The notes beneath the pieces were generated by a model. It saw only the letters and a program-made list of their open reading frames with translations. It was not told the DNA's origin and ran no database searches. The translations under genes and the position numbers were made by a program. A stretch of DNA of 64,000 nt from Candidatus Mycolicibacterium alkanivorans (GTDB lineage: Bacteria > Actinomycetota > Actinomycetes > Mycobacteriales > Mycobacteriaceae). The first letter of the stretch is position 1, and every line of letters starts with the position of its first letter. Shown here piece by piece: positions 34,709 to 39,932 of this stretch. The stretch is from the NCBI RefSeq assembly GCF_022760805.1, contig NZ_JAIVFL010000001.1:2976001-3040000 (forward strand), written 5' to 3'.

Positions 34709-34951
34709 TCAGTCCCGGAAGTCGCGGAAGGCGTCGAGCAGCCGATTGCGGAAGTCCGGGTCGAGGTCGGATTCCTCGATTCTGCCCAGGGTACGCACCG
34801 TGCTGCGGAACTGCTCCAGGTAGTTCTCGCAGCCGTCACACTCGGCAAGGTGCAGGTCGAAGCGTTCCCGGGTGTCGAGGTCGAGTGCGCCGTCGAGGTA
34901 GGCGGTCACCAACTCGACGAGCTCGTTGCAGTCCAGGGTTCTCATGCGCAT
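34709..34951 (-). CDS. Zinc-finger (ZAS) anti-sigma factor
   Basis: 80 residues, soluble. His34, Cys38 and Cys41 form the H-x3-C-x2-C zinc-binding anti-sigma signature (HLAECDGC), with Cys8 near the N-terminus. It overlaps the sigma gene by about 10 bp, the normal arrangement for a cognate inhibitor. With no membrane segment it is a cytoplasmic sensor like RshA, possibly redox-responsive through its cysteines. Two ATG starts (34951, 34945) are possible. Confidence 0.9.
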   Translation of the reverse strand: MRMRTLDCNELVELVTAYLDGALDLDTRERFDLHLAECDGCENYLEQFRSTVRTLGRIEESDLDPDFRNRLLDAFRDFRD

Positions 34952-35574
34952 CCCGCCAGATAGTCTTCCAGCGCCTTGCGCACCGCGGCGCGGCCCCGGT
35001 GCAGCAACACCCGCTGGTTGGCCACGCTGATGTCCAGCAGTTCACACACCTCGCCGGAGTCGAATCCCAGCATGTCTCGCATGGTCACCACCTGCCGTTG
35101 CCGCTCGGGCAGCTTGTCCAGTTCGGCGCGCGCGACGTCGACGAGTTCGCGCCCCAACACCGACCCCTCCGGGGTGTCGGGAAATGGCGAGGGCTGCTCA
35201 CTGCTCTTCCAGTGCCCGGCCCACCGCTGCCCGGCCGGGCGGAACCGTGCCGGGTCAACGGTACCGCCGGTGAACGCTGCGATCTCGGCGTCGTCGCCGC
35301 GACGCTCCCGGACGCCGCGCGTCTTGGCGATGTTGATCATCACCGTGAAAAGCCAAGTGCGCAAAGATGATCGGCCCTCGAACTTGTCGATACCCTTAAG
35401 CAGCGCGATCCATGTCTCCTGCACCACTTCCTCGGCGATCTCGCGGCTGGAGACATATCCCCGCGCCACCCGCAACAGCGCCGGCGAGTGTTGATCGACG
35501 AGTTGGGCGAACACCGCTTCGTCGCGTGCGCGCAGCGCCGCGATCAAGGCCGTCTCGTCCGGAGCAGCTGCCAT
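34942..35574 (-). CDS. ECF RNA polymerase sigma factor
   Basis: 210 residues. Region 2 (about 20-90: FAQLVDQHSPALLRVARGYV, REIAEEVVQETWIALLKG) and region 4 (about 150-205: LDKLPERQRQVVTMRDM, VANQRVLLHRGR) are clear; region 3 is missing, as in ECF factors. The sequence does not match SigH, SigE or other named factors remembered from M. tuberculosis. The anti-sigma gene overlaps its end. Its upstream region carries GTTAGCAT, shared with the trxA promoter, which hints at autoregulation and a common regulon. Start ATG at 35574. Confidence 0.93.
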   Translation of the reverse strand: MAAAPDETALIAALRARDEAVFAQLVDQHSPALLRVARGYVSSREIAEEVVQETWIALLKGIDKFEGRSSLRTWLFTVMINIAKTRGVRERRGDDAEIAAFTGGTVDPARFRPAGQRWAGHWKSSEQPSPFPDTPEGSVLGRELVDVARAELDKLPERQRQVVTMRDMLGFDSGEVCELLDISVANQRVLLHRGRAAVRKALEDYLAGCA

Positions 35575-35660: not shown

Positions 35661-36800
35661 TCAGCACTGGTTGTTGACGAAGCAGTCCAACAGCAGTTTG
35701 GTGACAGCGTAGCCGGGGGCCTGGGTCTTCTTCACGGTGTGCGTCGGGGGCACGGTCACGCCGGGAAAGATCTGTTCGACAACCCTTGTGCCGGAACGGA
35801 ATCCGTACCGCTTCCAGGCGATATCCTGAATGGCGTCGTCTTGCACCGCCGGAATCAATCCCCGCCCGGCCGGTGTCAGGGCAAGGATCGGGTGATCGTT
35901 GAAGATCGTCGGCTCGGGGTAGAGCGTGACGATCCCCGGCGGGACGGCGCCGCCGTTGCGGGTCGTGATCCAGTTCAGCAGCTGGTTCTCGTAACCGGCG
36001 AGTAACCCGCCCGTCTGCTGGATGACCCATTGCTCGAACGCGCTGTCCGAACCGGTCCGCATCAGCCCCTGGGCTTCGATGAGCGCCTTGACCTTCCCGA
36101 GGGCGGCGCCGGCCTGCGCGGTGCTCGCGGGTTGGTACGGATTCCCCGATGCGACGGTAGCGAGTTCGAGCTGCGCCAGCGTCATGCCCGAGTTCGACGT
36201 CGCCGGATCGCTGCTGTTGATCAGCACGGGCCCGGCCGGCAGCGACACACCGAGATCCGACCATGACTTGCCGGGCAGCAGGTAGTCCTCGAGCAGGCGT
36301 CGGAAATCGACGATGTAATCGACGTTGTCGCGTTCCTCGACGATCCGGCTCCGCTTCAGGCCGTCGGCCGCCTCCTGGTTGGCGTACAGCACCTCCGGAG
36401 ACTGCAGCACGGATGCCGCTTCGTAATCGTTGCCGAAAGCCTTGCTGTAGCCGGACCCTTCGAAGATCGCTTGGGCGCTGGCCGAGGACGGCCACAGGCA
36501 ATCGATCTTGTTCGACTTGAGCTCGTCGGGCGGAATCTGCACCTGCTTGTAGGACCCCTTGGGTATGAAGTCGACCTCGAGGCGGTACTTGTCGGCCAGG
36601 ATCTTCTTGACCTCGGGGTCGTTGATGAAATCCCCTTTTTCGGATCCGCCGTAGCAGGTGATCCGGGTGGCGCCCTCACCCGATCCCGAGGTGCCACCCG
36701 ATCCGCCGCCCCTGCCCATGGTGATCAGCACGATGGCCACCACCACGACGGTGATGATCCCGGCGATCCCGAGATAGAACAGACCCTTGGACTTCTTCAT
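35661..36800 (-). CDS. Membrane-anchored solute-binding-like protein, orphan cassette gene 3
   Basis: 379 residues. One N-terminal helix (about 8-28) without a clear cleavage site is followed by a Gly/Ser linker (30-43) and a periplasmic-binding-protein-like domain (about 45-375). Features include ITCYGGSEKGDF, FIPKGSYKQVQIP and TSNSG at 201-205 within an INSSDPATSNSG stretch that parallels ITNPTQSNSG in the VWA lipoprotein of the same operon. No permease or ABC ATPase is nearby. It starts 10 bp after the XpaC-like gene. The ligand and role are unknown; a sensing or scaffold role is possible. Confidence 0.75.
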   Translation of the reverse strand: MKKSKGLFYLGIAGIITVVVVAIVLITMGRGGGSGGTSGSGEGATRITCYGGSEKGDFINDPEVKKILADKYRLEVDFIPKGSYKQVQIPPDELKSNKIDCLWPSSASAQAIFEGSGYSKAFGNDYEAASVLQSPEVLYANQEAADGLKRSRIVEERDNVDYIVDFRRLLEDYLLPGKSWSDLGVSLPAGPVLINSSDPATSNSGMTLAQLELATVASGNPYQPASTAQAGAALGKVKALIEAQGLMRTGSDSAFEQWVIQQTGGLLAGYENQLLNWITTRNGGAVPPGIVTLYPEPTIFNDHPILALTPAGRGLIPAVQDDAIQDIAWKRYGFRSGTRVVEQIFPGVTVPPTHTVKKTQAPGYAVTKLLLDCFVNNQC

Positions 36801-36810
36801 AGCCGCGGGC

Positions 36811-37380
36811 TCACGACAGCTCCGGTGGCGGGTTGAGGTTGAGCGCAGTGAGCGAGTTGATGTACTCGTCCATCTGTCGCGCCGACAGGTCCTTGTCGGG
36901 CTGGGAGGTGAAGTCCACCAACCGTTTCAACTCCTCGCGGCCCAGCCGCAGATATTCGGGGTCACCACTGTGCTGGACGTCGACGTAGTCGTCGAGCGCG
37001 CCGGCAACGTTCGTGACGTAAGCCAGACTGCGCTGCGCCAACGGCAGGGCCACCCGAACATCGCGCTGACGGATCAGCTCGACCATGCGCGGTATCCCGT
37101 CGCAGCCGGACTGCAGCGCAGCCGCTGTTGCCCGGTCGCTGACTCGCAAACTCAGCGCCCGGATGCGGGCGGCGGTCTTGTCGATCTGCCGGAAGCAGTC
37201 GTTGAGCTCGCCTTCGGTGTCAGAGGGAGTCAGGTAGCCGAGCGCGAACCACACCGACAGCGCCAGCCCAGCCCCGAGTCCTGCCGCCAGCGGCCATCCG
37301 ACGCCGAGGGCGAACAGGACGACGAAGCCCACCGCTCCGGCGGCGAGCGCGGCGAGCACGGTCTGCTGCGAAGGCATCAT
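36811..37380 (-). CDS. XpaC-like membrane protein, orphan cassette gene 2
   Basis: 189 residues. Two adjacent hydrophobic segments (about 8-27 and 30-50) are followed by a helical cytoplasmic-looking domain with ALSLRVSDRATAAALQ and RSLAYVTNVAGALDDYVD stretches. The pattern resembles the XpaC family (5-bromo-4-chloroindolyl phosphate hydrolysis protein), usually found next to TelA toxic-anion-resistance proteins. No telA is present here. It is 10 bp from both neighbours, so all three genes form one operon. Assignment to XpaC rests on overall pattern and is moderate. Confidence 0.6.
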   Translation of the reverse strand: MMPSQQTVLAALAAGAVGFVVLFALGVGWPLAAGLGAGLALSVWFALGYLTPSDTEGELNDCFRQIDKTAARIRALSLRVSDRATAAALQSGCDGIPRMVELIRQRDVRVALPLAQRSLAYVTNVAGALDDYVDVQHSGDPEYLRLGREELKRLVDFTSQPDKDLSARQMDEYINSLTALNLNPPPELS

Positions 37381-37390
37381 CGGCTGAGCC

Positions 37391-39025
37391 TCAACGGAAT
37401 CCCGCAGCGTCGCGCAGTGCTCCGACGACGCTGTCCTTGTGGATGTACGTGCCGCCGGTGCCGGCGGCGATGACGTCGCGCAGATCGTGTTCGTCGACGT
37501 CGCCGAACCCGATCGCGATCACCGGTATGCCCATCTGCGCCAGTTCCTCGATGGCGGTGTTGTCGTCACCGCCGTCCTGTCCGTCGGTCATCAGCACCAC
37601 GGCCTTCTTGCGGCCGTCGTCGCCGTAGCTGCCGAACACGTCGACGGCGTGCTGCAGGCAGCCGCGGATGTTCGTGCCGCCGCCGGGGCTGCTGTCGGTA
37701 ATGTCTTTGCGCAGCCCGAGCAGATCGTCCTTGCGGTTTCCGTTCACCGTCCATGGACCGCCCTTGATGCCGTCATCGAAGACGAACACCGTTGTGCTGT
37801 CCTTGGGATTGGCCAGCAGCATGTATCTTCGCGCGGTGTCGGGGTCGAAGAGGATGTCGGCGGCCTGCTGTACTCCGTTCCAGCCGTCCCCCTGCATGCT
37901 CCCCGAGCCGTCGAGGCAGTAGACGAAGTTGCCGGGCTGGCGATATTCGACGTTGTAGTTGTACAAGGCGTTTTGGATGACCGACGCAGCCGGGAACCGG
38001 ATCGGCTGCTCTTGGCGGTCGGTCACGATGCCCCAGTCCGGCCGGAACACCGTGTTGCGGAGATCCTGCGGCAGATTGGGCAACGACAGTCCGCTGCTGT
38101 TGACGGGCCGTCGGCCCAGCAGCAGCAACGCCTGCTGCGCCTCCGGGCTGAGCAGATACGTCTGGAGCTTGACGAAGTTGGCCTGCTTCTCGGAATTGTC
38201 GCCGTGCGGCAAGAAGCCCAGTGGCGAATCGGCGAAGGCGAGCGATCCCTGCGGGTACACCACCGTCATCGGTTCTTCGCCTTTGGGTACGCGGTCGCGG
38301 TTGGTCTCGATGACCAGCGCCTCGTAGGTGAATACGGCCTCGCAGCGGTCCGGTGCGGCGATGCAGTCGTCCATCAGCGTCTTCGTCGACGGCGGCGTGT
38401 GATCGAACTTGCTCATCAACCGTGTGATGCCGCTGCGCACCGGCTCCGAATCGAGCTGTTCCTGGGTGAGCGCTTTTCCGGGCGGGTTTCCGGCGAAGTA
38501 GTTCAAGAAGCCGAAGAACGCCGTCGCACCGGAGTTTGACTGCGTCGGGTTGGTGATCCAGACCTTGGCCTTGCCCGCTTCCACCACGTCTAAAATCTGC
38601 TGGATCGAGGTGTTGCTGCCGGGCGTGAAACCCAATCGATCCATGACATGGCGCCACCCAGCGAACACCACCGGTGAGGAGAACATCGGCTTGGAGTCGA
38701 CCAGCTTGCCGCACCGCTCGTTGCCGATCTGCTCGAATACCGTCGAGGCGAACCAGAACACGTCATACGGAGGCAGGTTCGAACAGTCCTCGCTGAGCAG
38801 GTTCGCCTGATCTACCGACCCCAGTTCCTTTGGGGTGCAGGTGAGTCCGTTCTTCTCACACCACGGCCGTACGATCTGGTCGAAAACCAGATGCTGTTCG
38901 GAGCCCATCACGATGCTAAGCACCTTGGGGTCGCTGCTGTAGCCACCGGGGGCGGTGGTCGTCCCGCTCGAACAGCCGGCCACGAACACGAGGGCCGCGA
39001 GAACCGCCGCATAGGCCTTGCGCAT
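37391..39025 (-). CDS. Lipoprotein with solute-binding domain fused to a VWA domain, orphan cassette gene 1
   Basis: 544 residues. A signal peptide with lipobox VAGC places lipidated Cys18 at the outer face of the membrane. Residues about 35-330 form an extracellular solute-binding-like domain (VITNP-type motif ITNPTQSNSG at 158-166 region, YPQGSLAFADSPLGF, LLSPEAQQALLLLG). Residues about 365-544 are a VWA domain with an intact MIDAS: DGSGS 372-376, Thr451 and TDGQD 480-484. A TAGGGT -10 box ends 5-6 bases before the ATG, suggesting a leaderless transcript. It leads the three-gene operon. A metal-dependent extracellular interaction triggered by ligand is an inference; no function is known. 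Confidence 0.8.
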   Translation of the reverse strand: MRKAYAAVLAALVFVAGCSSGTTTAPGGYSSDPKVLSIVMGSEQHLVFDQIVRPWCEKNGLTCTPKELGSVDQANLLSEDCSNLPPYDVFWFASTVFEQIGNERCGKLVDSKPMFSSPVVFAGWRHVMDRLGFTPGSNTSIQQILDVVEAGKAKVWITNPTQSNSGATAFFGFLNYFAGNPPGKALTQEQLDSEPVRSGITRLMSKFDHTPPSTKTLMDDCIAAPDRCEAVFTYEALVIETNRDRVPKGEEPMTVVYPQGSLAFADSPLGFLPHGDNSEKQANFVKLQTYLLSPEAQQALLLLGRRPVNSSGLSLPNLPQDLRNTVFRPDWGIVTDRQEQPIRFPAASVIQNALYNYNVEYRQPGNFVYCLDGSGSMQGDGWNGVQQAADILFDPDTARRYMLLANPKDSTTVFVFDDGIKGGPWTVNGNRKDDLLGLRKDITDSSPGGGTNIRGCLQHAVDVFGSYGDDGRKKAVVLMTDGQDGGDDNTAIEELAQMGIPVIAIGFGDVDEHDLRDVIAAGTGGTYIHKDSVVGALRDAAGFR

Positions 39026-39093: not shown

Positions 39094-39471
39094 CTAGACG
39101 GTGAACCCGAGTGCGCGCAGTTGCTCGCGGCCGTCCTCGGTGATCTTGTCCGGCCCCCACGGCGGATTCCACACCCAGTTGATCTTGGCCTCGTTGACCA
39201 GTCCGGCACCGACCAGCGCGTTGAGCGTCTGGTCCTCGATCACGTCAGTCAGCGGGCAGGCGGCCGAGGTCAGCGTCATGTCGACGAAGGCCACCGTGCC
39301 GGTGTCGCTCTTCTCGACGTTCACGCCGTACACCAGGCCGAGGTCGACGACGTTGATGCCGAGTTCGGGATCGACCACGTCACGCATTGCGTCCTCGATG
39401 TCGGCCAGAAGTTCCTCCGGCTGTGCCAATTCCCGGGTCGCTTCGCTCCTGACCGTCGGTGTCTCGCTCAC
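39094..39471 (-). CDS. sufT: MIP18/DUF59-family Fe-S assembly protein SufT
   Basis: 125 residues from a GTG overlapping the sufU stop (GTGA). It has the DPELGINVVDLGLVYGV motif and the TSAACPLTDVI segment with the reactive Cys of the MIP18 (DUF59) family. SufT helps mature Fe-S proteins, especially aconitase and lipoate synthase in other bacteria. Last gene of the suf operon (Rv1466 position). A longer in-frame start at 39549 lies inside sufU and is not needed. Confidence 0.92.
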   Translation of the reverse strand: MSETPTVRSEATRELAQPEELLADIEDAMRDVVDPELGINVVDLGLVYGVNVEKSDTGTVAFVDMTLTSAACPLTDVIEDQTLNALVGAGLVNEAKINWVWNPPWGPDKITEDGREQLRALGFTV

Positions 39472-39932
39472 TTCTTGTCCTCCAAGTCTTTTCGATGCGA
39501 TGCCTGAGCCAGGGCATCTTTGAAAGCCAGCCAGCCCAGCAACCCGCATTTCACTCGCGCGGGATACTTCGCCACCCCGGCGAAGGCCACCCCGTCGCCG
39601 AGCACATCCTCGTCACCCTCGATCGTCCCCCGCGATGAGACCATCTCGGAGAACGCCGCAACGATCTTGAGCGCATCCCCCACCGTCTGGCCGATCACCT
39701 GATCGGTGAGCACGGATGTGGCGGCCTGGCTGATCGAGCAGCCCTGACCGTCGTATGAGATGTCCTCGACACGCTCGCCGTCCTCGGACAGCGCCACCCG
39801 CAGCGTCACCTCGTCACCACAGGTCGGGTTGACGTGGTGGACCTCGGCGCCGAACGGCTCCCGCAGCCCGCGATGGTGTGGGTGTTTGTAGTGGTCCAGG
39901 ATCACTTCCTGGTACATCTGCTCCAACCGCAT
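39468..39932 (-). CDS. sufU: SufU zinc-dependent sulfurtransferase/IscU-like protein
   Basis: 154 residues. Cys38, Asp40, Cys65 and Cys129 are the zinc/sulfur ligands, and the extra segment around 100-120 is typical of SufU rather than scaffold IscU. SufU accepts persulfide sulfur from SufS and passes it to SufBCD. It starts 2 bp after sufS and its stop overlaps the sufT GTG. Confidence 0.95.
   Translation of the reverse strand: MRLEQMYQEVILDHYKHPHHRGLREPFGAEVHHVNPTCGDEVTLRVALSEDGERVEDISYDGQGCSISQAATSVLTDQVIGQTVGDALKIVAAFSEMVSSRGTIEGDEDVLGDGVAFAGVAKYPARVKCGLLGWLAFKDALAQASHRKDLEDKK

Follow-up and report, generated by a model that had tools for sequence, protein, structure and literature searches.

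Two solute-binding proteins and an XpaC relative encoded by a conserved gene module in Candidatus Mycolicibacterium alkanivorans: a candidate surface sensor without TelA

The stretch of 64,000 nt from Candidatus Mycolicibacterium alkanivorans analysed here (GCF_022760805.1, contig NZ_JAIVFL010000001.1) is referred to as the window, and its features are given as positions within it. The window contains a cassette of three genes on the minus strand, separated by gaps of 10 and 10 bp. The first gene (37391..39025) encodes a lipoprotein of 544 amino acids, assigned by Pfam, an AlphaFold model, fold matches and conservation, which combines a solute-binding protein (SBP) domain with a VWA domain. 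This gene, designated VWA-SBP, is present in a single copy in the genome. The second gene (36811..37380) encodes an XpaC-like membrane protein of 189 amino acids, which has no direct Pfam match and was assigned by hhalign and hydropathy. The third gene (35661..36800) encodes a membrane-anchored SBP of 379 amino acids, recognised from its fold model. The initial annotation of the locus had described this three-gene cassette with its 10 bp spacing, and the coordinates were confirmed. It had also stated that a permease, an ABC ATPase and TelA are lacking. The neighbouring genes were taken from the list of open reading frames for 33.0-42.5 kb and judged by eye, and six proteins were scanned with Pfam. 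Among these neighbours, neither an ABC permease nor the ATPase of an importer nor TelA was seen; SufC and an ABC-F protein are encoded in the region, neither of which is part of an importer. This agrees with the statement of the initial annotation.

The VWA-SBP lipoprotein carries a lipobox (VAGC) with cysteine 18, followed by the solute-binding domain (residues ~35-361) and the VWA domain (~365-541). In Pfam, the two domains match SBP_bac_11 with 39.8 bits (cut-off 25) and VWA with 51 bits (cut-off 23.8). The metal ion-dependent adhesion site (MIDAS) of the VWA domain has the complete DxSxS, T, D set of metal-site residues. These residues, D372, S374, S376, T451 and D481, are identical in all 34 rows of the VWA-SBP alignment (A6), the window's protein included, so that the intact MIDAS of the initial annotation is upheld by both the Pfam matches and residue conservation. 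The anchored SBP has a single N-terminal helix (residues 6-28) and an SBP domain (~43-379). It has no family match above cut-off in Pfam, where only a match to SecG below the cut-off was obtained, and its model shows a clear SBP fold. The AlphaFold model of the lipoprotein reached a predicted local distance difference test score of 92.1 (pLDDT) and a predicted template modelling score of 0.89 (pTM). Structure prediction of both binding domains, which had been suggested as a check, supports SBP folds, and the class II arrangement of two lobes across the domain was found. The SNSG motif that the two proteins had been noted to share occupies residues 163-166 of the lipoprotein, where it is invariant across A6, and residues 202-205 of the anchored SBP, where three of its four positions are invariant and N203 is nearly so across the 38 rows of alignment A5. 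The solute-binding domain of the lipoprotein and the anchored SBP are paralogues. The large domains of both proteins are predicted to lie outside the membrane. Fold matching places transport SBPs nearest to both proteins; because the top matches lie close together, they name no ligand. The sulfate-binding proteins Sbp and SubI share 12-17% identity with the SBPs of the module, which differs from them in having no cognate permease.

The kinship of the middle protein was established through its relatives. The protein has no Pfam or NCBIfam match of its own, and a search of the window's genome with PF10112 (Halogen_Hydrol), used as the family of XpaC, found nothing at the cassette locus. The family model has a cut-off of 29.8 bits. 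Proteins encoded at the same position in other cassette loci, designated here by L numbers, exceed this cut-off in L044 (108.8 bits) and in Ktedonobacter (L030, 32.1 bits) and fall below it in L037 (24.5 bits), Nocardia L010 (25.0 bits) and L083 (22.5 bits). In hhalign, the profile of the mycobacterial middle proteins matches a profile of other XpaC-type proteins, including that of L044, with a probability of 98.5 and an E-value of 2.9e-15. The Nocardia profile matches the same profile with an E-value of 2.7e-23 and the mycobacterial profile with 4.1e-17, and the alignments among the three span most of the protein length. Residues 4-41 of the middle protein form a 38-residue hydrophobic stretch that could accommodate two helices, and the protein probably consists of an N-terminal two-helix hairpin and a C-terminal domain. 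It thereby shows the hydrophobic N-terminus and C-terminal domain expected of XpaC-type proteins. This chain of profile comparisons supports its assignment as an XpaC relative, as had been proposed in the initial annotation together with such a comparison, although the direct Pfam scan is blank.

A scan of 84,980 species genomes with two short peptide patterns yielded 42 loci. In 39 of them, the VWA-SBP, XpaC-like and SBP genes lie in the same order and on the same strand; the others contain VWA-SBP alone (L043) or are partial (L045 and L046). The 39 loci are distributed among Mycobacterium, Nocardia, Micromonosporaceae, Propionibacteriaceae and Chloroflexota. The middle gene was recognised as XpaC-like in every one of them: 33 by the mycobacterial profile (E≤0.001), L044 by Pfam, and five (L008, L028, L035, L037 and L039) with further profiles from the XpaC-like family. 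Because it is a unit conserved across loci, the cassette is not the orphan it had been called. Its distribution is nevertheless sporadic, in keeping with the accessory nature suggested for it: it was found in 2 of 148 genomes of the genus, 1 of 296 of the class and 7 of 396 of the phylum, the own genome being included each time. These counts (E≤1e-60) may be low, as a loose first-look filter was used and part of the candidates were scored.

In 24 of the 39 loci, the SBP gene is followed by a gene for TelA. PF05816 (cut-off 30 bits) recognises the product with 64-104 bits in L015, L021 (Dactylosporangium), L030 and L037 and with 376 bits in L044, and the other TelA genes were assigned by a profile built from those recognised by Pfam. 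The pattern scan missed copies of the types L083-L087. These distant actinobacterial copies also keep TelA, with the gene order retained in L083 and L084 and rearranged in L085 and L087. The PF05816 matches are 232-303 bits in L083, L085 and L087, and the TelA of L084 was assigned by profile. In L085 and L087, the XpaC-like genes are blank in Pfam, and their assignment is based solely on size, a hydrophobic N-terminus and the location of the gene. TelA is the usual fourth gene of the unit outside the Mycobacterium/Nocardia clade. No paper combining TelA, VWA and solute-binding proteins was found in the open-licence literature, and an earlier mention is possible. The cassette derives from the four-gene VWA-SBP/XpaC/SBP/TelA unit, for which no description was found there; as a form of an already known type of system that lacks TelA, it is not categorically new.

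The 15 loci without TelA comprise 13 of the Mycobacterium/Nocardia clade, L025, and L035 from a metagenome-assembled genome (MAG) of the Propionibacteriaceae. L025 is uninformative, because its contig ends at the SBP gene. L035 (10167-13823) has no TelA in the 2526-base flank after the SBP gene or elsewhere in the MAG. None of the 13 loci of the clade has TelA after the SBP gene; L006 ends 42 bp past the SBP stop, its TelA absence being taken from the genome search, and L005, from an uncultured actinobacterium and assigned to the clade from the tree, belongs to a genome outside that search. The window's genome contains no TelA, in the operon or elsewhere, detectable by PF05816 (E≤0.1) or the TelA profile A4 (E≤0.01). 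The profile found none in 14 clade genome handles (probably 13 genomes), the window's included, and found both controls. Of 200 genomes sampled from the order, 42 contain TelA, and the window's family is not represented among these 42. A midpoint-rooted tree was built on both binding proteins, with L025 and L042 left out. The Mycobacterium and Nocardia copies form one clade in it (ultrafast bootstrap 96), nested among TelA-bearing copies, and L035 stands apart. Since the TelA-less clade is nested in this way, TelA was probably lost in it. The simplest history comprises one loss in the Mycobacterium/Nocardia clade and a second in L035. The Nocardia harenae copy (L008:1500-4845) groups with Mycobacterium, away from the other Nocardia, possibly by horizontal transfer.

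Proteins of the XpaC and TelA type are known from other settings. The sigma-W regulon of B. subtilis includes xpaC-yaaN and yceGH (PMC3498285), a roughly sevenfold increase of xpaC was seen in a liaR mutant of Enterococcus (PMC10269926), and XpaC/TelA genes are linked to LiaRS of Listeria and to nisin resistance (PMC8865564; PMC12791056). In these accounts, which concern distant relatives, XpaC/TelA genes are members of envelope-stress regulons. The XpaC-TelA operons (xpaC-yaaN and yceGH; PF05816 and PF10112) share the XpaC-type membrane protein with the cassette and TelA with its parental module. The window's copy differs from them in lacking TelA and in possessing two surface binding proteins, one of them with a VWA domain. 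In the Ter-type TelA/TerD clusters of Actinomycetota (L091 and L097, from other families of the order), TelA is accompanied by a short XpaC-like protein (judged by eye), as in the parental module; TerD-like genes (also by eye) take the place of the SBPs, and the window's genome has no TelA. A transporter-free SBP sensor is represented by 6lkg, which we take to be HptA of the HptRSA system. The module differs from such sensors in that no histidine kinase was seen and XpaC holds the membrane position.

We propose that the cassette is the TelA-less Mycobacterium/Nocardia version of the VWA-SBP/XpaC/SBP/TelA unit and serves as a surface ligand sensor of the envelope-stress kind, now operating without TelA. 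We estimate the probability of this reading at roughly 55%. In this model, the lipoprotein and the anchored SBP would be neighbours at the external surface of the cytoplasmic membrane, where each would close around a small molecule, for which an oxyanion or a compound bearing a phosphate or sulfonate group may be considered. This closure, together with metal-dependent contact of the VWA domain, may alter the complex with XpaC, whose cytoplasmic domain could pass the change on to the cell interior as a signal of envelope stress or of nutrients. TelA, where present, would be the likely cytoplasmic receiver; here XpaC might function by itself or with the help of another protein. The suggested type of ligand, oxyanion or phosphorylated, is a guess, based on the fold matches and on the few copies that have phosphate or sulfonate-type transporter genes next to them. 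A fuller version of the model, which we offer tentatively, is a transporter-free two-receptor complex: the paralogous SBPs, one of them coupled to the VWA domain as a metal-dependent switch, would signal the presence of an oxyanion or of a phosphorylated ligand via XpaC, and in Mycobacterium and Nocardia the complex would have been rewired to dispense with TelA and to use a different cytoplasmic partner. To our knowledge, the stimulus and mechanism of the XpaC and TelA envelope-stress proteins are poorly understood. Their pairing with two surface binding proteins suggests an entry point for the signal and yields proteins that can be screened for ligands, so that the module gives XpaC/TelA biology testable receptors. 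The naturally TelA-less clade separates the roles of XpaC and the receptors from that of TelA.

Several points weigh against the proposed sensor. Its ligand, protein interactions and output are conjectural, and no demonstration of XpaC transducing a signal was found in the literature consulted. TelA in Actinomycetota also has other contexts, for instance beside TerD-like genes. All 10 TelA loci examined from the order, drawn from 10 of the 42 TelA-bearing genomes of the sample, gave no match to the SBP or VWA-SBP profile within flanks of ~1.5 kb a side. As controls, the VWA profile finds L086, which lies outside its building set, and the A5 profile finds L085-L087. Divergence of XpaC was considered as a mark of TelA loss and rejected. 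The median ratio of normalised XpaC to VWA scores is 0.72 between Micromonosporaceae and Propionibacteriaceae, where TelA is present except in L035 and the truncated L025. It is 0.35 between Mycobacterium and Nocardia, none of which has TelA. However, it is also 0.37 between Chloroflexota and Micromonosporaceae, all with TelA; because the ratio is equally low where both sides keep TelA, the comparison does not discriminate and isolates no effect of TelA loss. Finally, the phosphate importer genes near three copies and an ABC transporter near L087, described below, may keep a link with transport alive.

VWA domains with a MIDAS are common adhesion modules. Accordingly, the VWA domain could bind an extracellular protein or a wall polymer, with the SBPs acting as holders of cell-wall ligands and not as signal receptors. 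The large domains predicted outside the membrane would suit such a role in adhesion or envelope assembly, yet the conserved pairing with XpaC and, elsewhere, with TelA points to coupling with the cytoplasm, and we regard this role as unlikely. The initial annotation had placed sensing, adhesion and envelope assembly together ahead of uptake. Sensing is still preferred to uptake, given that neither of the surface binding proteins has a transporter dedicated to it, but adhesion and assembly are now ranked as a rival of sensing.

It is distinctly unlikely, in our view, that the SBPs serve uptake by delivering their ligand to an ABC permease encoded elsewhere, for example that of a phosphate or sulfate importer, with the VWA domain and XpaC as accessories. 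The fold matches to transport SBPs are compatible with this role, as are some neighbouring genes. Phosphate importer genes lie divergently beside the module in Mycolicibacterium iranicum (L007:5783-7773) and Catellatospora (L022:3922-7569), with PstS and PstC, and in a second Catellatospora locus (L023:5481-7557), with PstC and PstA. These are two separate lineages, and the adjacency possibly hints at a phosphate link. In L087 (9410-12085), an ABC transporter with its own SBP and weak sulfonate/taurine-type matches directly precedes the four-gene copy on the same strand. With transporter genes next to it in two lineages and in L087, the module may still have a connection with transport. On the other hand, the ABC systems of L007, L022 and L087 carry an SBP gene of their own, no importer genes were seen beside the window's copy, and the partners kept with the binding proteins across loci are XpaC and, outside this clade, TelA. 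Permease families were found in just four of the 136 flanking proteins scanned with Pfam (out of 148 listed, from naive gene calls), one each in L007 and L022 and two in L023. A regular position of homologues beside a permease/ATPase pair, the pattern named in the initial annotation as incompatible with its view, was therefore not seen in the neighbourhood survey. No family occurs in more than four of these 136 proteins, and no specific extra neighbour recurs: the clusters shared by several genera (ABC-type ATPases in six loci, a kinase in four, others in three to four) are very common superfamilies or XpaC itself.

Downstream of the cassette and outside the conserved module lie genes for an extracytoplasmic function (ECF) sigma factor (34942..35574, minus strand; Pfam) and a probable zinc-finger anti-sigma factor of 80 amino acids with an HxxxCxxC motif (~34709..34951, minus strand; translation read by eye). 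The pair is present as initially annotated; the coupling to the cassette that had been suggested is not supported. The sigma gene starts 86 bp from the SBP stop on the same strand, and sigma-W of B. subtilis controls xpaC (PMC3498285), both of which would suit a module acting as output or sensor arm of the sigma/anti-sigma pair. However, the sigma factor has relatives in 25 of 60 genomes of the genus, the own genome included (E≤1e-40), against 2 of 148 for the cassette. In L050 (genome G009), the suf genes and paaD run straight into the sigma gene without the cassette, leaving a natural empty site (L050:2122-2173) with 52 bases between the aligned parts of paaD and sigma. No relative of the window's sigma factor was found by tblastn (E≤1e-8) in the other fetched cassette loci, whose flanks are short in L006, L009 and L025, and sigma-70 domains occur in 2 of the 136 flanking proteins. 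Among the sigma loci fetched, besides the window's own, only L050 (paaD, sufU and sufS) and L053 (trx and echA12) share its surroundings, so the sigma gene may have a different location in many of the 25 genomes. Since a related genome has the suf-paaD-sigma arrangement without the cassette, the adjacency of the sigma factor appears to be independent of the module, and its functional connection with the module is very improbable.

That the remaining genes are decaying leftovers after the loss of TelA is the least credible explanation. In its favour are the absence of TelA, the position of XpaC as the gene with the lowest conservation and the highest ratio of nonsynonymous to synonymous substitutions (dN/dS) of the three, and the Nocardia crassostreae copy (L042, 7890-9516), in which two overlapping frames share the match to VWA-SBP. 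Against it, the MIDAS and SNSG motifs are invariant or nearly so, and dN/dS among four mycobacterial copies is 0.11-0.21 for VWA-SBP, 0.17-0.31 for XpaC and 0.10-0.23 for SBP, which largely refutes it. From these values of 0.10-0.31 in all three genes, the cassette is judged from sequence comparison to be under purifying selection and therefore a working variant. The frame split in L042 is either a sequencing error or a broken gene.

Directly upstream of the window's cassette, a SufT/PaaD-like gene (39094..39549, minus strand; Pfam FeS_assembly_P) closes a SUF stretch. The region probably departs from the gene order of M. tuberculosis, as the initial annotation had suggested. The surroundings of the cassette vary: it adjoins SUF genes in the window and in L006, lies elsewhere in L005 and neighbours the phosphate importer in L007. 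In Nocardia abscessus, SUF genes are found on the other strand ~4.3 kb (L010:15673-17600) and 0.8 kb (L013:12089-15064) past the SBP gene, as if the SUF neighbourhood were old.

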